The notes beneath the pieces were generated by a model, which worked only from the letters and a program-made list of their open reading frames with translations, was not told the DNA's origin and ran no database searches. From Syntrophomonas sp. DTU019 (GTDB lineage Bacteria; Bacillota; Syntrophomonadia; Syntrophomonadales; Syntrophomonadaceae): DNA of 64,000 bases. The stretch lies in the NCBI GenBank assembly GCA_913757435.1, contig CAJYDM010000008.1, forward strand, positions 1 to 64,000. Direction: 5' to 3'. Position 1 is the first letter of the stretch, and every line of letters begins with the position of its first letter. Positions 7,480 through 22,697 of the stretch are shown here, piece by piece. The position numbers and the translations under genes were made by a program.

Positions 7480-10113
7480 TTGCCGAACTATAAAGTTTTT
7501 CAGGATTTTGCTGATTCTTTACGTACAAAAGTATTCGGCGTAGATAGTGGTAATAACACAAGACCAATTCGGATAGACAGTAGTGGAAGATTGGAAGTTC
7601 AATCAGCCATCAGTGGTCCAGTCGATGTAAGTGGTGTCGTCGGTATCAGTGGCCCTGTCGAGATTAGCGGTGTTGTCGGCGTCAGCGGCAGTGTTGCCGT
7701 CAGTGGTCCTGTCGATGTAAGTGGTGTCGTCGGTATCAGTGGTCCTGTCGAGGTTAGCGGTATCGTCGGCGTCAGCGGCAGTGTCGCCGTTAGTGGTCCT
7801 GTCGAGGTTAGCGGTATCGTCGGTGTCAGCGGCAGTGTTGCCATCAGTGGTCCAGTCGATGTAAGTGGTGTCGTTTGGCGTCAGCGGCAGTACGCCGTTA
7901 TGGTCCCACGATAGCGGTGTCGTAGCCAGCGGCAGGCTGCCATACCAGTGGTCCTGCTCGATGTAAGTGGTGTCGTCGGTTTCAGGCCCATTAGAGATTG
8001 AAGTGATTGTCGGCGTCAGCGGCAGCGTCGCCAGCAGTGGTCCTGTCGAGGTTACGGTATCGTCGGTGTCAGCGGCAGTGTTGCCGCCAGGTATCCTGGT
8101 TTTATTAGCGGTATCGTCGAACAGTGTTGCCGCCAGTGGTCCTGCCGATGTAAGTGGTGTCGTCGGTATCAGTGGTCCGTCGAGGTTATATGTGTCGTCG
8201 GCGTCAGCGGCAGTACGCCAGTGCATATCCTGTCGAGGTTAGCGGTATCGTCGGCGTCAGCGGCAGTGTCGCCGTTAGTGGTCCTGTCGAGGTTAGCGGT
8301 ATCGTCGGCGTCAGCGGCAGTGTCGCCGTTAGTGGTCCTGTCGAGGTTAGCGGTATCGTCGGCGTCAGCGGCAGTGTTGCCATCAGTGGTCCAGTCGATG
8401 TAAGTGGTGTCGTCGGTATCAGCACGCCGTTAGTGGGTCCGGTCGATGCGAAGCGGTATCATGCGTCAGCGGCAGTGTCGCCGTTAGTGGGTCCCACGAG
8501 GTTGAAGCGGGTATCGTCGGCGTCAGCGGTAGTCGCCGTTATGGTCCCCGCCGAGGCGAAGGGTATCGGCGTCAGCGGCAGTGTCGCCGTTATATCCAGT
8601 CAGATAGCGGTATTACCGCGTCAGCGCAGTCGCCGTTAGCGGTCCTGTCGAGGTTAGCGGTACTGTCGGTGTCAAGGGCAGTGTTTACCAGTGTCCAGTC
8701 GAGGATGCGGCAGTCGTCGGCGTCAGCGGCAGCGGTTACAATTGTGCGGTCCAGTCGATGCAAGTGGTACGTCGGTATCAGTGTCCCGTCGAGGTTAGCG
8801 GTATCGTTTGCGTCAGCGGTGTCGCCGTTAGTATCCCATTATGTTGAAGGCATCGTCGGCGTCAGCGGCGTGCTGCCGTTATATCCCATCGAGGTTAAGG
8901 TATCGTTTTACGTCAGCGGCAGTGTCGCCGTTAGTGGTCCCAATATGTTAGCGGTATCGTCGGCGTCAGCGGCGTCGCCGTTAGTGGTCCCACGAGGTTA
9001 GCGGCATCGTCGGCGTCAAAGGCAGTGTCGCCGTTAAAGTGGTCCTGTCGAGGTTAGCGGCATTTTGTCGGCGTCAGCGGTACGCTGCTATTAGTGGTCC
9101 TACGATGTTTAGCGGTATCAATGGCGTCAGCGGGCAGTGTCGCCGTTAGGTATCCCATGAGGCGAAGTGGGTATCGTCGGTGTCGCGGCAGTGCTGGCCA
9201 CCGGCGGTCCAGCCTGATGGCGAATGTCGGCATCAGTAAAATTACGAGGATTAGCGGTGTCGTCGGCGTCAGCGGCAGTGTCGCCGTTAGTGGTCCTGTC
9301 GAGGTTAGCGCATCGTCGGTGCCTGGCGGCAGGTTGCTACCGCGGTCCAGCCGATGGGCGGTGTCGTCATCAGTGGCCCCACAGAGATTGAAGGTGCTCG
9401 TTTACCGGCGCCAGCGCAGTGTTGCCGTTATGTCCTATTCGATAGTTACGGCATCGTTTGGTGTCAGCGCGCGTTGCCATCAGTGGTCCAATGATGTAAG
9501 TGGTGTCGTCGGTATCAGTGGTCCTGTCGAGGTTAGCGGTATCGTCGGTGTCAGCGGCAGTGTTGCCATCAGTGGTCCAGTCGATGTAAGTGGTGTCGTC
9601 GGTATCAGTGGCCCTGTCGAGATTAGCGGTGTCGTCGGCGTCAGCGGCAGTGTTGCCGTCAGTGGTCCTGTCGATGTAAGTGGTGTCGTAGGTATCAGTG
9701 GTCCTGTCGAGGTTAGCGGAACGGTTATCGTACAAAACACTAGCGGAAGTCCGCTATATGTCAATATATTTGCCAGAAATACTGTTGATTCAGGCCCTAT
9801 ATTAACCCCGGTCAGTGGAGGCACATCAGGTGCACTCAATGGTGGAATTTGGGATGTGCTAGGGTATAATTCCTGGACCCTGGCTGTAAAATACAGTGGA
9901 GCCAGCGGGGAACTAATGAATGTAAAACTGCAGATGGCAGCAGTAAGTGGGGACGAAAACTTCGTAGATGATGCTGCTTTTGTAAATTATAGCGGAAGAA
10001 CCTGGCATTTCTTTACTCCTAATTATCACGTCCGCTATGCTCGTATGTACTACCAATTTAGCGGCACCTCCGATGATGGTAATTTGTTGCTGCAATTCCA
10101 AGGAGAATATTAA
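7480..10113 (+). CDS. Ser-Gly hexapeptide repeat protein with DUF6385-like C-terminal domain, frame broken in the middle
   Basis: The gene begins with TTG at 7480 after GGGGAG and ends at 10113. Residues 1-44 form a unique head (NYKVFQDFADSLRTKVFGVD) with no signal peptide. Then comes a tandem array of six-residue units of the form SGxVxV, in the order SGPVDV, SGVVGI, SGPVEV, SGIVGV, SGSVAV. From about 9721 a unique 130-residue C-terminal domain follows (WTLAVKYSG, then RYARMYYQFSG and LLLQFQGEY). I relate this domain to DUF6385 with moderate confidence. Units are clean at 7609-7880, 8230-8440 and 9490-9720. Between these blocks many indels and substitutions shift the frame, so no full-length product can be read. 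This may be a sequencing problem in repeats or true decay. The absence of a signal peptide and the repeat design recall spore-surface filament proteins such as BclA, but only by analogy. Confidence 0.65.
7609..9720 (+). repeat. tandem 18-bp array encoding SGxVxV hexapeptides
   Basis: About 2.1 kb made of 18-bp units, each coding for one hexapeptide with Ser-Gly at positions 1-2 and Val or Ile at positions 4 and 6. Units are arranged in a larger pattern of 54 to 90 bp. If all units were in frame there would be roughly 115 of them. Alternating small and beta-branched residues suggest a regular beta structure, and there is one Ser per unit as a possible O-glycosylation site (inference). Long stretches are noisy, as described for the gene. 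Confidence 0.9.
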
Positions 10114-10201: not shown

Positions 10202-12520
10202 TTATTGGTTTATTAACAGGTCTGCTATTGCCTGGATTACTCCCTGACCACCGTTGATATCAAGTACATAATCAACCTGATTTTTTAGTTCCAGAGTGGA
10301 ATCCTTCAGCGCCAAGCTGAGACCCAACCTGGGCATAGATAACAAATCAGACTGGTTATTACATAAACAAGCAATTGCTTCACAACAGAGGCCTTCTTTC
10401 TGACAAAGCATGTTAGCAACAGAAGCTTTGTCAAAATTCGAATAATCAGTATTAAGCTGAAATTCTTGAGCAGCAAATTTGATGATAGGATCTTCCTCCG
10501 GATTAATGAGCAGAATGGTAATCCCTTTCTGCAATAAACGAAGGACGCCTGTACGATCCTGGTAATTGAATTTCTTAAATGCTTGCCCGGAAGCATTATA
10601 ATAAACCGAACCATCAGTCAGGATACCATCTCCTTCTAGCAACAAGACTTTAATTTTAGCAGCTTTGGCGCCGATATATTGGTTTTTAATTGCCTCATTC
10701 ATGGCCTGGAAATGGGGGCTAATATCGTTGATATCCTGTTCACAATGTAACAAATAGGGACGGAACTTTTCTTCCATCATCTTTGCTTTACGAACGGGTT
10801 CCCTTTCGGCTGAGATGGTTGGAATCGCTAACATTAAAAATTCCAATTCTACCCGATTCATAGGAGTAATAAAAGTGCTGAAAAAAGGATTATTCCTTAA
10901 TTCTTCCATACTTTGATTAAACTGCTCATAGCTCTGGTTAATCCTTACCGGATCACGGCAACTTGCCAGTTCATTAATCATATCCAGCTTATCTTTACAT
11001 ACGGTTATCAAATCGAATACCTTTGCATAGGCATCCTGCATAATCTTGTTTTGTTTAATTACATAGTCCATATCATAACTTAAGTTATTGCCTTTGAGCC
11101 AATCCTCTTCTACAATGTGCTCTTGCAGTTGATTTTTTATCACATCATCTAGACTTTGAAATATGGTCCCTTTTATATGGGCACCTTGTTTCGTGGTATT
11201 GATTACATGCAGGGATTTATAATGACTTAGATAAGCTTCAAATTGCTGGCGCATGCGATTAAAGGTATGGCTGCTGGGTACGGGATTTCCATGTACATCT
11301 TCAAGCCAAAGTGCCTTATCCAGGATTTGTTCGCTAGCCTCCCAGGGATGAAAAGTAGTGCCAGCCGCATATACTTTATGGCCACGATAAGCCAGGTTTT
11401 GACCTACCAGGATGATAGGGTTGAAACCTAGCCGGGCTAGCAACTGGAGGGTGATTACTGCAATAGTAGTAGCATCATAAATAGTTTCATTAGGAACGTT
11501 GTTTCGTGGCTTGAGATAATATGCAGCTAGAGTATCCTGGCTGATTAACATATGCATTTTAGGGCCCGGGTATTGGACAAGAGTCTTGTAATATACTGTG
11601 CTGCCAAAGATTAGTGGAATTGAATTAATCCCTTTATCTATAACTTCTTTGCCAATTACTAAATTTTTTTCACTAGGGTCATAGGTACAGGCAGCATCAG
11701 GATAAATTCCGTTGCGAACCAAGGCATTCAATGCTGTACCTACGGAAAAAATATAGGCTAAGCCTTGTTCCTTTATTTTTCGCAGGTTTTCCAGTTCGTC
11801 CTCCAATGAAGGCCCTGAAGCTACCATGACCGCTGGTTTATTAACAAAGTAATCCTTTTTCTCTAGAAGAATATTAGGACAATTTAATACTTCAATTAAA
11901 TTATGGGCACTGTTCAGGGTCCAGCGCTTTTCAAAAGCGGATAATGTATTTATCGAAGCACTACGCTCTCTGATATGGTCTTCAAAAACAGTAAAGAAGT
12001 AGTGTCGCTTTTCCGTAAAGATCTCTTTGTAAGCAGGAAGCTCTATAACCATTCCTGAATAGCCAATAGTTTTAACATAATTACGGCAAAATTGTTCAAC
12101 GTCTGCGGGCTGGGTTTCTATAAAGATGTTTTTTAATAAATGGCGCGGGATTTTGGTCAGATCAGTTTGTGCCAGAAACTGTTGGAATATCTCGGGGACA
12201 GGTTCATATATGGAAAAAGGCTTGTAGGGATATGCTTCTATAAAAGCTTGAATAGCATAGCCTAATCCTGTTCCATAAAACAAAATATCGGAGTGTTCCT
12301 CAACATTTTTTTGGCTTTCAATAAAATCTTGGGCTTCCCGACGGGGATTGTTTTTATCATGAATGAAATTTTGTTCTACCTTAATATTATGAATGCCCTT
12401 TTTATTTGCTACCAGTTGAACCAAATCATGATTCAATGTTTTTTCTAATGAAGACATCTTTTCCCAGGCCTCGGGATAAAAATCTTTTAGAAATTTCATG
12501 TTTTTCTCTAAATATGACAT
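10202..12520 (-). CDS. MAF-type glycosyltransferase (MptE-like/DUF115 domain) fused to a degenerate KdsC-like HAD domain
   Basis: Proteins of the MAF (motility accessory factor) family transfer nonulosonic acids such as pseudaminic or legionaminic acid to Ser/Thr of flagellin. Here residues 75-115 (ILFYGTGLGYAI) and 225-390 (AVMVASGPSLEDE, then GTALNALVRNGIYPD and ILVGQNLAY) form the MAF core. Residues 622-770 look like a KdsC/CMAS-type HAD phosphatase: LLLEGDGILTDGSVYY, FNYQDRTGVLRLL, NQVDYVLDINGGQG. The nucleophile Asp of the DxDG motif is Glu629, and the GDDxND motif has become CNNQSD, so this domain is probably inactive. It is the last gene of the legionaminic acid operon, after a gap of about 195 bases from legF. 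With no flagellar gene in the window, its acceptor is open. Confidence 0.85.
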   Translation of the reverse strand: MSYLEKNMKFLKDFYPEAWEKMSSLEKTLNHDLVQLVANKKGIHNIKVEQNFIHDKNNPRREAQDFIESQKNVEEHSDILFYGTGLGYAIQAFIEAYPYKPFSIYEPVPEIFQQFLAQTDLTKIPRHLLKNIFIETQPADVEQFCRNYVKTIGYSGMVIELPAYKEIFTEKRHYFFTVFEDHIRERSASINTLSAFEKRWTLNSAHNLIEVLNCPNILLEKKDYFVNKPAVMVASGPSLEDELENLRKIKEQGLAYIFSVGTALNALVRNGIYPDAACTYDPSEKNLVIGKEVIDKGINSIPLIFGSTVYYKTLVQYPGPKMHMLISQDTLAAYYLKPRNNVPNETIYDATTIAVITLQLLARLGFNPIILVGQNLAYRGHKVYAAGTTFHPWEASEQILDKALWLEDVHGNPVPSSHTFNRMRQQFEAYLSHYKSLHVINTTKQGAHIKGTIFQSLDDVIKNQLQEHIVEEDWLKGNNLSYDMDYVIKQNKIMQDAYAKVFDLITVCKDKLDMINELASCRDPVRINQSYEQFNQSMEELRNNPFFSTFITPMNRVELEFLMLAIPTISAEREPVRKAKMMEEKFRPYLLHCEQDINDISPHFQAMNEAIKNQYIGAKAAKIKVLLLEGDGILTDGSVYYNASGQAFKKFNYQDRTGVLRLLQKGITILLINPEEDPIIKFAAQEFQLNTDYSNFDKASVANMLCQKEGLCCEAIACLCNNQSDLLSMPRLGLSLALKDSTLELKNQVDYVLDINGGQGVIQAIADLLINQ

Positions 12521-12715: not shown

Positions 12716-13420
12716 TTAAGGGCATGGGGGTCCTGTTGAGGATAGAAGAAAGCTCCCATATAACAAATCTACTTCACTATCTATATCCAGGGATCTTTCA
12801 ACAGGCATGGTATAGGCAATTGTTTGTCGGTTTATAAAGCTGCGTTCTTGCATTAAATTAGGAATGAAAGCCATGTAGATGGCACCATTAAGAACATATA
12901 CAGGGGGGAGATCTTGTTTGCGAGTAATAGAATGCTCCTCAGGCATTAAGGGAATAAGCCTTTTTTGCTGGTTCAGTATGTACATCCAATACGGGCTTGA
13001 TTGGGCAGCACAGACCGAAACACAAGATGGCGCATTTTCTTGTATACAATAATATATGCAGTTGTCAATATCCTCCGTAGTACGTAAAGGAGAAGTAGGC
13101 TGAAGTAAAATAACATAATCATAAGTCGTTTTCAGCGTTTGTATAGCGTGAATAACCGGTTCGATCCCAGGAGTTTCATCCCTGGACAGCTCAGCCGGAC
13201 GTACAAAAGGCACCTCACACCCCCAGGTAGCAGCAACGGTAATAATTTCCGGATCTTCCGAAGAAAGAATTAAGCGGTCAATGTAGCGAGAATGGAGCCC
13301 AGCTTCGATTGTCCACGCTATAAGTGGTTTGCCTCCGAACATGGTAAGGTTTTTACGGGGGATACCTTTAGAACCACCTCTAGCGGGAATAACTCCTAGA
13401 ATTCTCTGTCCATTGATCAT
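12716..13420 (-). CDS. legF: CMP-legionaminic acid / CMP-N-acetylneuraminic acid synthetase
   Basis: The enzyme activates a nonulosonic acid with CTP to give the CMP sugar used by glycosyltransferases. The N-terminal motif VIPARGGSKGIPRKNL (residues 10-25) is the CMP-sialate synthetase P-loop-like signature, followed by KPLIAWTIEA, LILSSEDPEI and VILLQPTSPLR near residue 100. The length of 234 residues is that of a single-domain enzyme, without the C-terminal phosphatase-like domain found in animal CMAS; a domain of that kind is instead fused to the neighbouring glycosyltransferase. The ATG overlaps the ptmE stop as ATGA. LegF rather than NeuA is chosen because of the pathway context. Confidence 0.85.
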   Translation of the reverse strand: MINGQRILGVIPARGGSKGIPRKNLTMFGGKPLIAWTIEAGLHSRYIDRLILSSEDPEIITVAATWGCEVPFVRPAELSRDETPGIEPVIHAIQTLKTTYDYVILLQPTSPLRTTEDIDNCIYYCIQENAPSCVSVCAAQSSPYWMYILNQQKRLIPLMPEEHSITRKQDLPPVYVLNGAIYMAFIPNLMQERSFINRQTIAYTMPVERSLDIDSEVDLLYGSFLLSSTGPPCP

Positions 13421-14460
13421 GTAAACACCTCGTTAAATTCGTGGTTAGCCCGCTCATACTCATCGAAGTGACCAATATCAATCCAATACTCACGGATAGG
13501 AAAAACGGTAATTTCTTTTTGATCTTCTTGGAGGGCTTTGATTAAATCAGGAATATCATAGAATGTTTCCGCAGGTACATATTTCAGAACCTCCGGATTA
13601 AATACATAGATGCCAGCATTGATAAAATAGCGTTGAAAAGGTTTTTCTTCAATATGCAGCAGACGGTTTTTGTCAAAATTCACAATTCCATAGGGAATCT
13701 GTCTATATTTTTCCTTAACACAGATGGTAGCAACACCCCTATTTTTTCTATGAAAATTGAGTAATTGCGTGGTGTTTATTTTGGTTAAAATATCCCCGTT
13801 CATGACCAGCAGAGGTTCAACCGGTTGGTCGGGAAGCAAGCTCAAAGCACCGGCGGTTCCTAAACGTTTGTTTTCGTGCAGATATTGAATTGATACCCCC
13901 CATCTCGAGCCATCACCAAAGTAATCCATAATCATTTCCGCCTTATAATTGACCGAAAAATAAAAATTCTTTAATCCTTCTTCTACAAAATTTTCTAATA
14001 TAGTCTCTAATAGAACCTTACCACCTATTTTTAACAAGGGTTTAGGGCAATTTTCGGTTAAGGGTTTTAAGCGCTGACCCAAACCACCAGCCATTATTAT
14101 TACAGAGTTATTGTATGAGGGGGAATCAAAAAAGTCCTGGGATACTTCTATCCCTACCACACAATGATCCTGGTTCAGAATGGGAATCTGATTTAATTTA
14201 TGGGTTTTCATGAGTTGAAAAGCGTTTTCTCGGGATTGCTTGTCAGTGATATATCGTGGATGAGTGTTCATAATATTGGCCACTGGTTTGTTTAGATCCG
14301 TATATTTTAATATAGCACGGCGAATATCTCCATCCGTAACCGTTCCTAATAACTGGCCTTTTTCATTGACAACCAGGGCGATCTGCAGGGTGGACTTGTC
14401 AATCACGGCAATGGTGTCCTGTATACTCGTTTCCGGCCTGACTAGCGCTTTCTTCCACAT
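13417..14460 (-). CDS. ptmE: PtmE-like nucleotidyltransferase with two CBS domains
   Basis: Residues 1-115 hold a CBS pair (VVNEKGQLLGTVTDGDIRR, LNQIPILNQDHCVVGI). Residues 118-347 hold a sugar-phosphate nucleotidyltransferase with MAGGLGQRLKPLT, the CPKPLLKIGG segment and EYWIDIGHFDEYERA at the end. In Campylobacter, PtmE with this architecture forms a GDP-activated glucosamine that feeds the legionaminic acid pathway. Its place among legB, legC, legG and legI supports the same role here. The start ATG at 14460 follows AGGGTGA. Partner enzymes that supply glucosamine phosphate (PtmA, PtmF) are not in the window. Confidence 0.82.
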   Translation of the reverse strand: MWKKALVRPETSIQDTIAVIDKSTLQIALVVNEKGQLLGTVTDGDIRRAILKYTDLNKPVANIMNTHPRYITDKQSRENAFQLMKTHKLNQIPILNQDHCVVGIEVSQDFFDSPSYNNSVIIMAGGLGQRLKPLTENCPKPLLKIGGKVLLETILENFVEEGLKNFYFSVNYKAEMIMDYFGDGSRWGVSIQYLHENKRLGTAGALSLLPDQPVEPLLVMNGDILTKINTTQLLNFHRKNRGVATICVKEKYRQIPYGIVNFDKNRLLHIEEKPFQRYFINAGIYVFNPEVLKYVPAETFYDIPDLIKALQEDQKEITVFPIREYWIDIGHFDEYERANHEFNEVFT

Positions 14461-14537: not shown

Positions 14538-15149
14538 CTATGGAGAATTGGTAAACTTGTGCTTAATGACTGATCCTGCTCTAATGATGCAATTAGCACC
14601 AATTTCAATTCCCTGGACAATGGTAGAACCTGCACCAACGAAAGTACCGTCGCCGATAGTAACATTACCACATACAGTAGTTCCGGGAGCAAGGTGTACA
14701 TGGCTGCCGATCATCACATCATGGTCAACTGCTGTCCGGGTATTAATTATGCAATTTTCCCCTATGACAGTACCCGTCTGTATAACCGCACCAGCCATGA
14801 TCTGCGCCCCCTCCAGCAGAGTTACATTTGCTGCCAACACGGCTGAAGGATGCACTATGTTGGCAAAGGTGTAACCTTTATGTTTGAATTTATGGTAAAT
14901 GTCCCTGCGGCGGAGAAACCCAGAACCGGGTACCATCCCCAGGCCATTGACTAAATAAATAGTTTCCGGAGGATAACTAAACACCTGTTCATCAGTCCCG
15001 AGCAGAGGAAGCTCAAAAAATGCATCAGAAGTGATATTTCGCTGAAGGCAAAGAGAAGTAAACCCCAGAATGGTACAGGATACTTGGCTTAAAGTATCTA
15101 ACAATACCCGGGCATGACCTCCTGCCCCAATAATAATAACAGGTTTCAA
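14538..15149 (-). CDS. neuD: NeuD/PglD-like sugar O- or N-acetyltransferase
   Basis: The 203-residue protein has the two-part structure of this family: an N-terminal Rossmann-like nucleotide-sugar part (IIIGAGGHARVLLDTLSQ) and a C-terminal left-handed beta helix of hexapeptide repeats (for example GAQIMAGAVIQTGTVIGE, VHLAPGTTVCGNVTIGDG). The His in AVDHDVMIGSHVHLAPG is the expected catalytic base. In this operon it is best placed as the step that acetylates the 4-amino sugar made by LegC (LegH role). It could instead O-acetylate the finished acid. It starts with TTG at 15149, overlapping the legI stop, with GATGAGGTG upstream. Confidence 0.8.
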   Translation of the reverse strand: MKPVIIIGAGGHARVLLDTLSQVSCTILGFTSLCLQRNITSDAFFELPLLGTDEQVFSYPPETIYLVNGLGMVPGSGFLRRRDIYHKFKHKGYTFANIVHPSAVLAANVTLLEGAQIMAGAVIQTGTVIGENCIINTRTAVDHDVMIGSHVHLAPGTTVCGNVTIGDGTFVGAGSTIVQGIEIGANCIIRAGSVIKHKFTNSP

Positions 15150-16216
15150 GATATCACCTCATCAGCCTCATAGGCCCGGGATGCCTTCTGGCCCAGCATT
15201 TGCCAATAACAAAGTGGAGACATTCCGGTGCCAGGGCGTTTAATTCCCAGGTTCTCTTCCGTAAAAACCGCACCTTTTTGTATAGCCCTGGTTGCTACCA
15301 GGCTTTTTCTTACTAATAAACGATTTGCGGTTTCAGCCGGGGTAACGGTTTTGTGGGGGGAACCCAGGGCCATTTCTACCTGGTGAATAGCTTCCACCAT
15401 GGATTGTAGTTCATCCGGTTCAAGTGAAGATTGATGATCTGGGCCGGGTAGATTACGATCTAGAGTAAAGTGTTTCTCGATAATGGCAGCCCCTCTGGCT
15501 GCTGCCGCTATGGGGACTACAATGCCCGGGCTGTGATCGGAATAGCCCACAGCTAAACCAAATGCTTTTCGCAGGGTTTCCATTGCCCTGAGATTGATTT
15601 GATCCAAAGGTGCCGGGTATTCTGAAGTACAGTGCAGCAGGGTGACCTTATCTCTAAGAACCGGTTCTCCTGCTAATAATGCATAACTATCCTGAAAAGC
15701 TGGCGGAGATAATGTTGTGTTTTTATTCAGATAGCCCCAGGCTAATAACCCGAGAGCAGTTTCAATCTCTCCCAGGTTGCTCATCCCGGTGGACAAAATG
15801 ATTTTTTTCCCGGTTGAAGCGGCTTTCACTAGCAATGGAGCATTGGTGATCTCCCCAGAGGGAATCTTCAGGCATGTTACTTGTAAACGGGAAAGCACTT
15901 CTATACTATTAAGATCGAAAGGACTACATAAAAACTCGATATTGCGAGTACGACAGTATGCTGAAAGTTTCTGCAATTGGAATTCATCTAATTGTAGTCT
16001 CTCCAGCATCTGCCATTGGTTTTCTCCCAGTGGATCCGATTTTTTTTGGTAACCTGCTTTAGGGGCAGACTGGCTAACCAATTCCGAAGCCGTAAAGGCC
16101 TGAAATTTGACCGCATCAGCCCCGGATTTAGCTGCAATATCTATTAATTCATAAGCCAATGCCATCGAACCATTATGATTCACACCGGCCTCTGCAATAA
16201 TATAAACATGTTTCAT
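15146..16216 (-). CDS. legI: legionaminic acid synthase (NeuB/LegI family)
   Basis: This family condenses phosphoenolpyruvate with a 2,4-diacetamido-trideoxymannose (legionaminic) or ManNAc (sialic) to make the nine-carbon acid. The N-terminus IIAEAGVNHNGSMALAYELI and the segments GADAVKFQAFTA, LKIPSGEITNAPLL and HCTSEYPAP form the TIM-barrel active site. The last 60 residues are the SAF antifreeze-like domain (VRKSLVATRAIQKGAVFT). I placed the start at 16216, which has GGAGGG upstream; an in-frame codon at 16240 has none. LegI is preferred to sialic acid NeuB because legB and legC are present. Confidence 0.88.
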   Translation of the reverse strand: MKHVYIIAEAGVNHNGSMALAYELIDIAAKSGADAVKFQAFTASELVSQSAPKAGYQKKSDPLGENQWQMLERLQLDEFQLQKLSAYCRTRNIEFLCSPFDLNSIEVLSRLQVTCLKIPSGEITNAPLLVKAASTGKKIILSTGMSNLGEIETALGLLAWGYLNKNTTLSPPAFQDSYALLAGEPVLRDKVTLLHCTSEYPAPLDQINLRAMETLRKAFGLAVGYSDHSPGIVVPIAAAARGAAIIEKHFTLDRNLPGPDHQSSLEPDELQSMVEAIHQVEMALGSPHKTVTPAETANRLLVRKSLVATRAIQKGAVFTEENLGIKRPGTGMSPLCYWQMLGQKASRAYEADEVIS

Positions 16217-16264
16217 GACCACAGCCCTCCTTATTAACAACCCAACCTTGACCGTAATTAATAA

Positions 16265-17422
16265 TCAAAAGAGGTCATAAAATTTTTTCTTTAAAATTCC
16301 ACTTAAATGAGCCTTTTTTAACACTTCTTTTATTTTTTCAGCACTATTTCCTGCTCCGTATAATGACTTCGTACCCGGGAGCTTGGCCTGGAATTGCGGC
16401 GAAAGGGCGTAATCTATAGCTCTCTTTATATCCGCTTCTCTTGGTTCACAGTCAACAATACACGTTGCTTTTAATCTACCGGATTGCCTGCTGCCGATAT
16501 TTACCACGGCTTTTTTGAATACTGGTGCTTCGATAATGGCACTGGATGAATTACCAATGAGCAGTTGACAATGCTGCATTGCACTCAGATATTTCAACTG
16601 TCCCAGGGAAGGACTATAGTAAACCCGGCCCGGATTCTTAAAAGCATAGTCCTTCATTAAGGCGCTAATCCGTCTCCCCCCCATGTCAGCATTGGAACCG
16701 GTCATAACGATTTTGATATTTGGGTAGTGATGCAAAGTTGCTGATAGTTCCATAGCACTATCGTTGGCTTCTGTTTCCAAGGTGGGAGGATGATAGGAAA
16801 CCAGGAAAAATGGAGGCTTAAGATCAAAGTCCAGCGCTTGCGCCAATTCCTGTCGGGATAAGAGTTGCAGTTTTTTTAAGTGATCAATACCGGTACTGCC
16901 CACATTATAAACCCGCTCCGGATCTTCGCCCAGTTGGATTACCCTTTGGCGGTAGATTTCCGCGGCAACAAAATGAAAATGTGCCATCTTGGTAACAGCA
17001 TGACGTATGTATTCATCGACCGCACCTTCCGTAATCTCTCCCCCAGCGATATGGGCAACAGTAATATGGTGTAATATGGCAGCCTGCGCTGCAGCCAGTA
17101 TTTCATAACGATCTCCTAACAGCACCAGTATATCCGGGCGCAAACGTTCCAGCGCTTCAGCCAAGCCGATGATGGCAAGGCCCAATGATTTGGCCATACC
17201 CACTGCAGTATCGCTGGATAAAAGCATTTCCAGTTTTTCATTGATCTTGAAGCCATCATTTTCAATAATTTGATAGGTAAGCCCATATTCGGGAGACAAA
17301 TGGGTACCAGTAGCAATTATTTGTAGTTCCAGGTCGGCATCAGCCGCAATTTCTTGCATTAGCCAATACAGGAGTCCATATTCGGCTCTCGTACCGGTAA
17401 GCACACAGATTTTCCTATTCAT
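16265..17422 (-). CDS. legG: UDP/GDP-sugar 2-epimerase, hydrolysing (NeuC/LegG family)
   Basis: The enzyme cleaves the nucleotide from the diacetamido sugar while inverting C2, giving the mannose-configured substrate for LegI. Family motifs are clear: CVLTGTRAEYGLLYWLM at the start, DILVLLGDRYEILAAA near residue 95, VAHIAGGEITEGAVDE near 123, VSYHPPTLE near 210 and GNSSSAIIEAPVF near 290. Its 385 residues are the usual length. Start ATG with GAGGGAGG upstream. A gap of about 80 bases separates it from legC, and the next gene, legI, starts about 50 bases after its stop. Confidence 0.88.
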   Translation of the reverse strand: MNRKICVLTGTRAEYGLLYWLMQEIAADADLELQIIATGTHLSPEYGLTYQIIENDGFKINEKLEMLLSSDTAVGMAKSLGLAIIGLAEALERLRPDILVLLGDRYEILAAAQAAILHHITVAHIAGGEITEGAVDEYIRHAVTKMAHFHFVAAEIYRQRVIQLGEDPERVYNVGSTGIDHLKKLQLLSRQELAQALDFDLKPPFFLVSYHPPTLETEANDSAMELSATLHHYPNIKIVMTGSNADMGGRRISALMKDYAFKNPGRVYYSPSLGQLKYLSAMQHCQLLIGNSSSAIIEAPVFKKAVVNIGSRQSGRLKATCIVDCEPREADIKRAIDYALSPQFQAKLPGTKSLYGAGNSAEKIKEVLKKAHLSGILKKKFYDLF

Positions 17423-17503: not shown

Positions 17504-18673
17504 TCATGCCAAAAAAGCACTGCTGGGCAGGTTGATGATTCGGCGTTCCAGGCTTTCAGCGGTAGAAAGATCCATCAGCGGGCATTGCGCATACATCGGT
17601 AGTTTATGCATAAGAGTCCATGCTGGCCGGGTCATAATACCGTTTTTGTGGGTAAGTTGAAGCACATGATCGCGTTCCTGCATGTGTGCTTCATCCAGCA
17701 AGAGCACATTCAGCCAATAATTACTGGTAGCATAGTCCGGTTCGTGAAATATTTTTATACCTTCCAGACTTTTAAAAGCTTGCTGGTAACGCTGAGCCAG
17801 GTCTCGTTTCTTTTTAATGAAATGCGGCAACTGTTCAAGCTGGGCACAGCCCAGGGCAGCATTGAGGTTGGGCATACGGTAATTAAATCCTGTCTGATCA
17901 TGGTTAAAAGCCCATGGGTGGGGAAGTTTGGCCTGTGTACTTAAATGCCTGGCTTTTACTGCCATCAGGCTATCATTGGTTAGTATCGCCCCACCGCCTC
18001 CAGTAGTAATTATTTTATTACCGTTGAAACTAATAATAGAGAGGAGACCGTGATGACCTACATGCTTTCCTTTATAATATGATCCTAAGGCTTCGGCTGC
18101 ATCTTCAATTAGAATCAAATTATGTTCTTGACAAAGTCGCAGCAAAAGATCCAGATCTACCGAATGTCCAAAGGTATGCATAACAATTAAGGCCTTGATA
18201 CGACGGCCTGTATTCTTGTTGAAACATCCTTCCGGTTTTTGCGAGGCTACATCATGCAAATATTGATTCAATTTAGCACCGTCTAAGCCCAAACTGTATT
18301 CACTGCTGTCTACAAAATGGGGAATAGCTCCAATATATTTAACCGCATTGGCAGTAGCGATAAAAGTAAGGGTTGGCAACAATACTTCATCGCCTGCTTT
18401 AACCCCGGCTACGAGCAGGCTTAAATGTAGAGCTGCGGTACCATTCACAACCGCAACCGCGTATTTAGCACCGGTAAAGGTTTTAAGGCGCTCTTCAAAA
18501 TCATTCACATATTGTCCCGCAGAAGATACCCAACGTGAATCGATACACTGTTTTATATAGTTCCATTCATTACCAGCAAAAGAAGGTTCATGCAAGACTA
18601 ACGGACGCTGATGATTCGGCAGAATTATGTCCAACACTTGCATAATGGCATCAGCCTTGAATTTTGATTTCAT
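17504..18673 (-). CDS. legC: PLP-dependent sugar 4-aminotransferase (DegT/LegC family)
   Basis: The enzyme adds an amino group at C4 of the 4-keto-6-deoxy sugar made by LegB. Visible signatures are AVVNGTAALHLSLLVAG (cofactor phosphate binding), IVMHTFGHSVDL, LIEDAAEALGSYYKG and ISFNGNKIITTGGGGAI, where the Lys after Asn-Gly-Asn forms the internal aldimine with PLP. 389 residues is typical. The ATG overlaps the legB stop as ATGA, which points to translational coupling. B. subtilis SpsC is a relative used in spore-surface glycan synthesis. Confidence 0.88.
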   Translation of the reverse strand: MKSKFKADAIMQVLDIILPNHQRPLVLHEPSFAGNEWNYIKQCIDSRWVSSAGQYVNDFEERLKTFTGAKYAVAVVNGTAALHLSLLVAGVKAGDEVLLPTLTFIATANAVKYIGAIPHFVDSSEYSLGLDGAKLNQYLHDVASQKPEGCFNKNTGRRIKALIVMHTFGHSVDLDLLLRLCQEHNLILIEDAAEALGSYYKGKHVGHHGLLSIISFNGNKIITTGGGGAILTNDSLMAVKARHLSTQAKLPHPWAFNHDQTGFNYRMPNLNAALGCAQLEQLPHFIKKKRDLAQRYQQAFKSLEGIKIFHEPDYATSNYWLNVLLLDEAHMQERDHVLQLTHKNGIMTRPAWTLMHKLPMYAQCPLMDLSTAESLERRIINLPSSAFLA

Positions 18674-19680
18674 AGATTATACACATCAGTTCGATACTTT
18701 TTTAGATGGTTAGGATCGCAAAACCAATGTATGGTTTCTTCTAGCCCTCGTTTTAAGCCATCTATACCTCCATAGGTTGGATGCCAGCCCAGGAGTCTTT
18801 GGGCTTTACTATTATCTGCCCACAGGCGCTCTACTTCACTTTTTTTCGGCCGCAGGCGCTCTGCATCTGTTTCAATTTTTACTTCTACCTGCATGAGATC
18901 GATAATTGTTTTCGCCAGACTTCCCACCGCAATTTCATAATTACTGCCGATATTAATAATTTCTCCGATAGCTTCATCACATGCCGCAACGGCTAAAAAT
19001 CCCGAGATGGTGTCCTGGATATAATTAAAGTCGCGCGTGGGATGGGTTGCTCCTAGTTTTATTATTCGTTGTCCGCTGGCGAGTTGAGTGATAATCGTTG
19101 GGATAACGGCCCGAGCCGATTGGCGTGGTCCATAGGTATTAAAGGGACGGATGATGGCAACCGGTGTTTGGAAAGAACGATAAAAGGCTAATGCCAGTTG
19201 ATCGGCAGCGATTTTAGTAGCAGCATAGGGAGACTGTCCCTGGAGAGGATGATTTTCATCTATAGGTACATAACGGGCGCTGCCATAGACTTCACTGGTG
19301 GAAGTATGGATAACCTTCTCTACACCTAATTCACGAGCTGCCTGTAATATATTTAATGTGCCTTTAATATTGGTATCCACATAAGTCTCCGGTGAGTGGT
19401 AAGAATAGGGAATAGCAACCAGTGCAGCTAAATGAAAAACCAGATTGCAGCCTGTCATGGCTTTCTTGACCCCATATGGATCACGTATATCTCCTACAAC
19501 AATATCCAGCTGCTGCAGGATGTCCGGTGGAGTATTATCTAACCAACCCCTGGAGTTAAATGAATTATAAAAAACAAACGTCCGCACGTTGCACCCTGAT
19601 CTCACCAAGGCCTCCGCCAGATGTGATCCCAGGAATCCATCAGCACCAGTGAGTAAAATTTTGCCACTATTAAGTTTCAT
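18670..19680 (-). CDS. legB: nucleotide-sugar 4,6-dehydratase (LegB family, extended SDR)
   Basis: This is the first committed enzyme of the legionaminic branch; it makes a 4-keto-6-deoxy nucleotide sugar. The Rossmann motif LLTGADGFLGSHLAEAL is at residues 9-25. The active site shows HTSTSEVYGSARYVPIDE and SPYAATKIAADQLALAFY, with the YxxxK pair. The segment RPFNTYGPRQS is also typical. I chose the ATG at 19680, preceded by AAAAGAGGA; an in-frame start at 19725 lacks a site. It is the first gene of an eight-gene minus-strand run ending at 10202, and its promoter must lie in the 127 bases shared with the divergent gene at 19808. Confidence 0.87.
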   Translation of the reverse strand: MKLNSGKILLTGADGFLGSHLAEALVRSGCNVRTFVFYNSFNSRGWLDNTPPDILQQLDIVVGDIRDPYGVKKAMTGCNLVFHLAALVAIPYSYHSPETYVDTNIKGTLNILQAARELGVEKVIHTSTSEVYGSARYVPIDENHPLQGQSPYAATKIAADQLALAFYRSFQTPVAIIRPFNTYGPRQSARAVIPTIITQLASGQRIIKLGATHPTRDFNYIQDTISGFLAVAACDEAIGEIINIGSNYEIAVGSLAKTIIDLMQVEVKIETDAERLRPKKSEVERLWADNSKAQRLLGWHPTYGGIDGLKRGLEETIHWFCDPNHLKKYRTDVYNL

Positions 19681-19807
19681 ATCAATCCTCTTTTCATGTC
19701 CTACTATTCCGATTATATTTAGCATTTGGGATTGTTATCACTCTTTTCTTTTAACTGGAATAATATGTTTAGTAGTATTAAATTTTTCATTAAAGGGAAG
19801 TGAAACC
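19681..19807. promoter_or_regulatory. divergent promoter region between legB and the second DUF6385-like gene
   Basis: The two start codons face away from each other across 127 AT-rich bases. A TAATAT-like -10 lies near 19760-19768 for the plus-strand gene. Promoters for both directions must be here, so the glycan operon and this gene may be co-regulated (inference). Confidence 0.4.
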
Positions 19808-20674
19808 ATGAAAAAGACTGTTTTGTCTTGCTTTGAAGCCAATAAAAATCATGTTTATAATTGTAATTTTTTACTTCCAAATAATTGTAGAAATGTTCCA
19901 GATGGTTGGCTGATTTGCGCAAATGAGGGTTATGCTCGGTTTTGTTGGCATAAATCATGCCGTAGTAAATCTTCGGTAACCATCCAGAACACTTGCCCGC
20001 AATTTAGTAGTATATGCCAGGAAAGACCCTATTATATACCGGTTAATGCCCAGGAAGAGTGGCAGGTAGGAGCAGTTTTAAAGGCTAACCGGAAAATGCG
20101 GGCCAGTATTATAGTGCACATGATTAATAGCTGTGGTCAGATTTCCAGCTTCGAAATGATTTTTATGCTGCAGCCTGGGTGCCGCTACTATTATCGGCAT
20201 ATAACTATACCTGACGATATGCAGTTAGCCTTCCTGGAAATAGGTACCGCCGAACTGAAAATTCTGAGTATACGTGGAGTAGTTTTTAGAAAAGATGAAT
20301 CGAAAATAAATGTTGGTGTAGTTGAGGCTGTTAAAAAGATAATAGAGCCGGTTAAAATTGATAGATATATCTGTGATACGAGTGAAGACGTCATTGCTAC
20401 TATGATTGAACAGGTTTCGGAAACAAAAAATGTACTTTTACTTAGAAATTATACTTTTTCCGTACTAAACTTGGGAAGTATGCCGGCACTGGTTAGACTC
20501 CAATCAAGTCCAGATGGGATTCATTTCATGGATGAACCTATGGGAGATGAAATAATTGCACCCGATGAAGTTAAAGCCTATACGTATAACTATTTTCTCC
20601 CCTTTGTTCGAATCTGTTTTAAAACGGAAACAGGCAGCACTCATTTACGCGTTTTTTTCCACGGACATGATTAA
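19808..20674 (+). CDS. hypothetical protein with DUF6385-like C-terminal domain
   Basis: A 288-residue protein whose ATG at 19808 follows AAAGGGAAGTGA. No signal peptide or membrane span is visible. Residues 1-160 look like a beta-rich carbohydrate-binding-like module (NVPDGWLICANEGYARFCW, then MRASIIVHMINSCGQ). The last 80 residues (NYTFSVLNLGSMPALVRLQS, then FLPFVRICFKTETG and LRVFFHGHD) follow the same pattern as the end of the repeat protein at 10113: an aromatic-rich strand, a VRLQ-type strand, an (F/Y)xR strand and a final FxG strand. Its place directly opposite legB ties it to the glycan operon. Function is unknown; a glycosylated or glycan-binding surface protein is a guess. Confidence 0.7.
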   Translation: MKKTVLSCFEANKNHVYNCNFLLPNNCRNVPDGWLICANEGYARFCWHKSCRSKSSVTIQNTCPQFSSICQERPYYIPVNAQEEWQVGAVLKANRKMRASIIVHMINSCGQISSFEMIFMLQPGCRYYYRHITIPDDMQLAFLEIGTAELKILSIRGVVFRKDESKINVGVVEAVKKIIEPVKIDRYICDTSEDVIATMIEQVSETKNVLLLRNYTFSVLNLGSMPALVRLQSSPDGIHFMDEPMGDEIIAPDEVKAYTYNYFLPFVRICFKTETGSTHLRVFFHGHD

Positions 20675-20985: not shown

Positions 20986-21290
20986 CGTCTGTTGCCAAGG
21001 TGCGTTGCCTCAAGAAACCACCTACCTGGGCTCCCGGCGGCTTGGCTGTTGAATCAGATGCGGAAACGTTTAGATGTTTTCTTCTCCGTTACCAATATAT
21101 TTGACCTTGAGGTTGATCTGTTGATTCTGGACACTACCACCACCTACTTTGAAATAGAGGTGAAGATGAGGATACTGATGAACAGGACAGTCTTCGAAAG
21201 CGTGGTCATGGCAAAGATAATCACCCGAAGAAACCCTGGCCAGTGTTGCGGAAGGGGTCTAAGCAAAGAATCATACCTAAAGTTACAGCG
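20986..21290 (+). pseudogene. IS1634/IS4-like transposase fragment
   Basis: An internal piece of a DDE transposase abuts the IS110 fragment. The stretch DLEVDLLILDTTTTYFEIE (about 21103-21160) is the first catalytic Asp region of IS1634-type enzymes. After a frameshift, LRKRGHGKDNHP continues the conserved rGhSKD motif. No start or end is left. Confidence 0.65.
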
Positions 21291-21293
21291 AGG

Positions 21294-21316
21294 CAGGACG
21301 CGCGTCCTGTTTTTTT
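21294..21316 (+). terminator. terminator upstream of the coupling-protein gene
   Basis: A perfect palindrome (CAGGACGCGCGTCCTG) is followed by seven T residues. It insulates the coupling-protein gene from the transposase fragments. Confidence 0.65.
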
Positions 21317-21345
21317 GCGTCCTATTTTTTTTGAAGGAGAAATAT

Positions 21346-22117
21346 ATGGATAAACGAAAGATGTATCTCTTCTTTCTGCCGGTCCTGTTCCTCTTGGACA
21401 TATGGATAGTGGGATACATTTCAGCATTCTTTGTCGCTCCAGAAGTATTGGGGTTTATTAAAGAACACCCCCTCCGCGCAACATGGGAATTGACGATTGC
21501 TCTGTTTGGAAAAAATGCTTCCCCCGCAGGGGAGGCGATAATCCATACCTGGAAATGGGCTAATCTCTTATTAATGATATCTGTCCTGTCGCTTCTAGGC
21601 GCACATCGGCTGGGAACTCAAAGCAAAACCGAACCTGAATATCACGGAAACCTTCTGGGTTCGGAACGATGGGCCACCTTTAATGAAATCAAAAAGATTT
21701 TCAGATTCAAACTCTCTCCGGGCTTATTATTCGGAACCTTCAACAACAGACCCCTGATACTTCCTTCTGATATAGGAGGAAACCTGAACGTATCCGTTCT
21801 AGGGCCGCCCGGCTCCGGTAAATCAAGGGCTTATGTGAGATTGAACTTATTCCAGGCCGTAGACAGCGGTTGGTCGGTAGTGGTCACTGATCCCAAAGGA
21901 GAACTCACCAGGGATTTCCGATCATTTTTTTTAAAACAAGATTACGATGTGAAGATATTTAACTTGGTTGATATGCTCCACTCCGACCGTTGGAACCCGC
22001 TATCACAAGTAAAAACAGACATAGACGCGCAGCTTTTTACTGAAGTAGTGATCGCGAACACTCAGGCACCAGGTAGAAAGAGCGGTGACCCCTTCTGGGA
22101 CCGCGCTGAAGCGAACT
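21346..22117 (+). CDS. VirD4/TraG-type conjugation coupling protein, 5' exon
   Basis: Coupling proteins are membrane ATPases that hand DNA to a type IV secretion channel. This 5' part encodes two N-terminal membrane segments (residues about 5-27 and 73-92) and the Walker A motif in LGPPGSGKSRAYVR (about residue 165), followed by VVVTDPKGELTRDF. It stops making sense after PFWDRAEAN, where a group II intron starts at 22118 (literal translation runs into a stop at 22140). Joining base 22117 to 26391 gives an uninterrupted 605-residue reading frame. Start ATG at 21346 follows GAAGGAGA. Confidence 0.88.
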
Positions 22118-22697
22118 GTGCGTCCGTAATGGCAATGTAGAAAATCTGCCATAGCAAGCAGTGGGCGTGACCCATATACCCATCATCAACCGGTTTACCT
22201 GAGAGGGAAACCTCAAAAGGGAAAATAGCATACTGGTGAAACCATGAGTTGGCAAGTTACCATGCCACGACTGAATGGGAAGATGAAATCTGGCGAAAGC
22301 CGACCAATAGATACAAGGATAAAACCTGAATTGGTTGAACGATAGTCTGAGTGGTCTGACTCGGGTCTATGACGTAAGGTAACTACAATCGTCATACTGT
22401 AAATCTGTCTTTCCGCAAGTTTGGGAAAGATAGCATGGGGAATTTACAGCACAATTTCAACAAGAAATAAAAGGCGAAAGTCGTATCCGACAATCTATTG
22501 GGCTAGTTTCTACATTTGCTAAACGGAGATTGCCTAAGTTGGAACGCTTGCAATACAAGCTATTAAGCACAAGGTTTATGAATATCCAATATGGCAACGG
22601 AGCCGCCATAGTAGTCTGAGAGCGGGAAAGCCGTTTACATGGCGAAGGGCGGCAGCTTATGAACTTAACATTGATTTAGGAAGGTGTGAGAGACACT

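Follow-up and report, generated by a model that had tools for sequence, protein, structure and literature searches.

Why should a glycosyltransferase of the MAF family carry at its C-terminus a KdsC-like HAD domain that lacks the catalytic residues of a phosphatase? The question is raised by a gene in the 64,000-nucleotide stretch of Syntrophomonas sp. DTU019 DNA analyzed here (the window), and the first point to settle is whether the fusion is real. Across the whole open reading frame the Pfam models Maf_flag10_N (PF20157, 1.9e-9) and MptE-like/MAF_flag10 (PF01973, 6.4e-36) both score above their cut-offs, and the only Pfam HAD match in the 772-residue protein is sub-threshold. Compared separately with PDB chains using phmmer, residues 611-772 match KdsC (1j8d, 3.3e-20), the HAD domain of a Bacteroides acylneuraminate cytidylyltransferase (3e81, 1.7e-16) and an N-acylneuraminate cytidylyltransferase (3ewi, 5.8e-14), which bears out the by-eye alignment of residues 622-770 with KdsC and the C-terminal domain of CMP-sialate synthetase made in the initial annotation. 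The NCBIfam KdsC model (TIGR01670) spans residues 623-770 at 4.8e-23 with 81.8 bits, below its curated cut-off of 106.95; the HAD domain of the CMP-sugar synthetase at locus L063 scores 171 for comparison. An AlphaFold2 model of the whole fusion, built from eight fusion sequences, has a mean pLDDT of 73.6, with most of the HAD part at 75-89. Its top Foldseek match is the solved Maf structure 5mu5 (E 4.8e-16), and its tail matches KdsC/YrbI structures (E about 5e-12, TM-score by target 0.71-0.81), giving the HAD IIIA fold. Sequence matches, the family model, fold and the broken motifs described below all agree, and the joining of a MAF to a catalytically incomplete HAD of the KdsC/CMP-sialate-synthetase type is confirmed far beyond chance. 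The protein is the only MptE-like protein of its genome; Table 1 places it among its neighbors.

Table 1. Features of the window around the MAF-HAD fusion gene.
Feature	Position	Strand	Basis and remarks
DUF6385 protein, Ser-rich VSGxVxVSG repeat array, putative acceptor	7480..10113	+	Convergent; stop 88 bp from MAF stop; C-terminal PF19912 just below cut-off
MAF-type nonulosonic-acid glycosyltransferase with C-terminal HAD pseudo-phosphatase	10202..12520	-	772 aa, ATG start; Pfam, PDB match, Foldseek
HAD IIIA domain (KdsC / CMP-NulO synthetase C-domain type)	10205..10690	-	Residues 611-772; E629, N674, CNNQSD; LTDG hairpin and GGxG tail retained
CMP-nonulosonate synthetase, LegF/PseF-type, without HAD	12716..13420	-	PF02348 1.3e-18; TIGR03584 (PseF) 2.9e-45, below cut-off
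CBS-domain sugar-1-phosphate nucleotidyltransferase (PtmE/LegX-like)	13417..14460	-	PF00483 and PF00571
NeuD-family acetyltransferase	14538..15149	-	TIGR03570 above cut-off
NeuB-type nonulosonate synthase (LegI-like)	15146..16240	-	TIGR03569 above cut-off
NeuC-type hydrolyzing 2-epimerase (LegG-like)	16265..17422	-	TIGR03568 above cut-off
LegC-family aminotransferase	17504..18673	-	TIGR04181 above cut-off
LegB 4,6-dehydratase	18670..19725	-	TIGR04180 above cut-off
Second DUF6385 protein, non-repetitive	19808..20674	+	288 aa; divergent from legB, other cluster end; PF19912 60 bits

In its N-terminal Maf domain, central MptE-like/Maf_flag10 domain, helical C-terminal bundle and linkage to nonulosonic-acid genes, the protein resembles the Maf flagellin glycosyltransferases of Magnetospirillum (5mu5) and Clostridium botulinum (CbMaf), but it differs from them in the extra C-terminal HAD and in having a DUF6385 neighbor instead of flagellin. 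The explanation to which we give an even chance is that of a MAF with a non-flagellin, DUF6385 acceptor, and with a non-catalytic scaffold tail that was moved to it from a synthetase. In this model, the MAF-type O-glycosyltransferase would take a CMP-activated nonulosonic acid, probably of the legionaminic-acid type, and attach it to serines of the repeat protein encoded tail-to-tail with it, rather than mainly to flagellin. The HAD tail would descend from the sugar-phosphate phosphatase domain of CMP-nonulosonate synthetases and, once transferred, would have been inactivated in differing ways from lineage to lineage while being retained as a folded scaffold. By analogy with vertebrate CMP-sialate synthetase, the likeliest use of such a scaffold would be to hold an oligomer together through its conserved hairpin and tail, with recruitment of the synthetase to the transferase as a possible second role. 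The C-terminal domain of the mouse enzyme (3EWI) is likewise a KdsC-type HAD; it forms tetramers and is without phosphatase activity (PMC8636478).

The fusion is not peculiar to the window. The search for further MAF and HAD fusions that had been suggested for this gene found 13 distinct loci in Syntrophomonadaceae, Desulfosporosinus and Peptococcaceae (the window, L056, L057, L058, L059, L060, L061, L062, L076, L078, L081, L082 and L194). Full-length matches occur in 7 of 398 evenly drawn Bacillota genomes, and the fusion is present in 8 of the 63 genomes of the class. A pattern scan of 84,980 species, which alone covered phyla beyond Bacillota and used clade-specific patterns, contributed Desulfosporosinus sp. 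Tol-M and two metagenome-assembled genomes of Peptococcaceae; in the same scan the nearest named relatives placed the window genome in Syntrophomonadaceae. We found no description of a Maf-HAD fusion in the openly accessible literature searched. Maf-1, with its C-terminal TPR, and Maf-2 with GlfM are likewise Mafs that have gained an extra domain or a helper protein for an additional task, but here the module is an enzyme-derived HAD, and the fusion clade points to a further type of accessory module in Mafs, the third besides TPR and GlfM.

The source of the domain is apparent from a maximum-likelihood tree of 51 HAD domains (13 MAF-HADs, six synthetase-fused HADs and 32 standalone KdsC-like sequences, with vertebrate sequences left out). 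The MAF-HADs and synthetase-fused HADs are split from the standalone sequences with support of 99/98, the MAF-HADs are monophyletic (98/92), and closest to them is the synthetase HAD of genome G413 (89/82). The kinship with the CMAS-type, synthetase-fused domain that had been proposed for the tail is therefore upheld for bacterial synthetases, and descent from a standalone KdsC is disfavored. In G413 and G407, both Syntrophomonadaceae, the synthetase carries an intact HAD (DCDG, SG/TG, GDDIND and the E-R-K triad) and the MAF has none; a HAD profile run at the highest sensitivity found no remnant of the domain hidden in the 1455-residue MAF frame of G413. Because of this arrangement and the grouping in the tree, the simplest history is probably that the HAD shifted from the CMP-sugar synthetase to the transferase; the tree is rooted at its midpoint, and the direction of the move rests on the intact catalytic residues at the synthetase side. 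In the window the HAD, of the same lineage as those of the bacterial two-domain synthetases, sits on the transferase, and the synthetase is a separate single-domain protein of 234 residues with only a CTP-transferase domain in Pfam, as the initial annotation had said of this neighbor.

A tail derived from a synthetase invites the idea that it still meets one. The cluster contains the complete LegB, LegC, NeuC/LegG and NeuB/LegI set, its CMP synthetase being a LegF in an informal sense only, and since the LegB, LegC, NeuC, NeuB and NeuD models all score above cut-off, the product predicted from these assignments is probably of the legionaminic-acid type. It is conceivable, as the initial annotation proposed, that the HAD tail holds the adjacent LegF-type synthetase and thereby lets CMP-legionaminic acid be handed straight on to the transferase. 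Besides the descent of the domain, gene order speaks for this: a LegF-type gene is the next recognized gene upstream of the MAF in 10 of the 13 fusion loci, overlapping or touching it in three, and is not adjacent to the MAF in unfused relatives. The data do not demand such docking, however, because the fusion persists in three genomes (G061, G189 and G330) in which no LegF-type synthetase was detectable; in these LegF-less fusions a SpsF-like cytidylyltransferase gene, identified by eye in the G330 cluster, stands in place of LegF. Moreover, the LegF proteins of fusion loci have no HAD partner with which the tail could pair, and we consider docking unlikely. A broader form of the same idea, which we also regard as improbable, is that a MAF subfamily left flagellin for Ser-rich DUF6385 repeat proteins of the surface and recruited the pseudo-phosphatase domain of the enzyme that makes its sugar donor; the resulting synthetase-transferase assembly would channel CMP-legionaminic acid onto dense serine arrays.

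The change of acceptor assumed by the preferred reading draws on the other side of the fusion gene. A convergent DUF6385 gene lies 74-263 bp from the end of the MAF gene in all 12 assessable fusions, the window included, the thirteenth locus (G309) being at a contig end and so outside this count. No flagellin gene was found near any fusion gene within the retrieved flanks, in contrast to 13 of 16 unfused relatives (G352 included); of the remainder, L071 and L075 have neither flagellin nor DUF6385, and G413 has DUF6385. In the MAF tree all fusions and the unfused MAF of G413 form one clade (100/99) nested among flagellin-adjacent MAFs. Within the draw of 398 genomes, DUF6385 is present in seven of seven fusion genomes against 56 of 398 overall (hypergeometric 8e-7, ignoring relatedness), and since fusion and neighborhood are shared by descent, the 12 pairings amount to one or two evolutionary events. 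Mafs are known as flagellin glycosyltransferases, and the MAF-HAD clade points to a non-flagellin acceptor, the DUF6385 repeat proteins. The flagellin genes of the window genome sit on another contig and this MAF is the only one there, so that it may also act on flagellin.

Most of the adjacent DUF6385 proteins contain arrays of the type VSGSVAVSGPVEISG, in which a serine recurs at intervals of about 6-9 residues and Ser+Thr make up 21-29%; at L060-L062 the array of the partner is short or absent. A structural model of the DUF6385 protein is weak (mean pLDDT 56), its repeats showing a regular pattern of short strands. In the window both ends of the gene are intact and in one frame, and the middle (about 7870-9440) has many frame shifts within the tandem array, reflecting either a repeat assembly error or decay of the gene; in L076, the nearest relative, the array stays open over at least 379 codons. 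The second DUF6385 gene of the window has homologues in the same divergent arrangement, beside the SDR gene, in G309, G330, G402 and G061. In many other Bacillota (L153-L162, L167, L170, L171), DUF6385 genes enclose or adjoin genes for large GT2-TPR and GT2-methyltransferase proteins. The pairing of glycosyltransferase and DUF6385 is the same as at the fusion loci, but the transferase families are unrelated, and in the window the transferase is a MAF accompanied by a dedicated nonulosonic-acid pathway. Because GT2-TPR glycosyltransferases are flanked in this way, these loci support the idea that being glycosylated is a general property of DUF6385 proteins, and suggest that DUF6385 and GT2 proteins form a general protein-glycosylation system. 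We found no mention of DUF6385 in the openly accessible literature searched.

This neighborhood also bears on a different use of the tail, namely as an adaptor for binding to the DUF6385 protein. According to Unay et al. 2024, as cited in PMC13317340, other Mafs bind flagellin through a C-terminal TPR domain or the partner GlfM, and the fusion coincides with the replacement of flagellin by DUF6385, which would make acceptor recognition by the HAD an analogous solution. We nevertheless find it doubtful. The source of the domain is a sugar-nucleotide enzyme and not a protein-binding module, and its most conserved features, the hairpin and the GGxG tail, are common to KdsC. Furthermore, G413 has a HAD-less MAF of the same clade with DUF6385 on both sides, and the HAD is therefore not strictly needed for the pairing. 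At that locus (L063 5695-10059) the MAF lies in a 1455-residue frame between the two DUF6385 genes, and within this frame it is followed by about 650 residues without Pfam match and a C-terminal methyltransferase domain.

The residues of the HAD domain itself argue for a scaffold rather than an enzyme. In the window, the Asp nucleophile of KdsC is replaced by Glu at position 629, "GDDxxD" reads "CNNQSD", motif II has N674, and the motif III Lys is retained. The two substitutions on which the initial annotation had based its dead domain, Glu629 and the replaced GDDxND, are thus real in the window, but Glu629 recurs in the nearest relative only. Across the 13 fusions the position is Glu in two, Asp in seven, Val in one and Asn in three, and with Asp in more than half of them Glu629 was rejected as a family mark of inactivity. 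What the family has in common is that no fusion retains the full catalytic set (DxD, Ser/Thr, Lys, GDDxxD): the motif II Ser/Thr is lost in 10 of 13 and retained in three, as is the first motif IV Asp. As alignment reference for substrate specificity we used a Glu-Arg-Lys triad, which corresponds to residues 56, 64 and 67 in KDN-9-phosphate phosphatase from Bacteroides. E56 and K67 are named in the PDB title of 4hgr, a structure of that enzyme, and the Arg is absent from all 13 fusions. The fold, LTDG hairpin and GGxG tail are thus like those of KdsC and KDN-9-phosphate phosphatase (TIGR01670, NF058599), but the window domain lacks their catalytic residues and substrate Arg and falls below the family cut-offs. 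The hairpin begins with LTDG in 12 of 13 fusions (LSDG in one) and GGxG is kept in 12 of 13; hairpin and tail are located at the contacts between subunits in KdsC. It had been suggested that the HAD might bind the sugar acid, and a domain that still binds nonulosonic acid or the phosphorylated form, serving as an allosteric sensor or retaining some phosphatase activity, would account for the seven Asp nucleophiles and for the second Asp and motif III Lys present in most fusions. Set against the broken motifs II and IV and the universal loss of the specificity Arg, that suggestion is weakened, and we judge it very unlikely. The losses were not a single event either: L060-L062 have lost the nucleophile and retain the motif IV Asps, whereas the other fusions mostly show the reverse, and inactivation therefore occurred more than once, after fusion.

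The tail has nonetheless been maintained. By the NG86 method, which gives only rough values where dS exceeds 1, dN/dS among pairs with usable dS is 0.12-0.30 for the HAD, and in these pairs the MAF part has 0.13-0.21; the HAD is therefore under purifying selection, though in most pairs it is somewhat less constrained and evolves faster than the MAF. That faster rate and the differing catalytic losses among lineages are what an accidental, functionless fusion in decay would leave, but with dN/dS well below 1, core motifs conserved and full length kept in 13 loci of at least three families, we regard decay as extremely improbable.

These loci constitute a natural experiment on the role of the HAD tail that animal CMP-sialate synthetase carries in inactive form, because a domain of this kind has passed between successive enzymes of the pathway and been inactivated in its new place more than once. 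A further arrangement occurs in G406 (L196 7919-8995; also L055), where a KdsC-like HAD is N-terminal in a 359-residue protein encoded beside NeuB-type and LegF-type genes. Directly past the window cluster, at 20992-22140 on the forward strand, lies the start of a T4SS-DNA_transf coupling protein, which hints at an integrated conjugative element nearby.
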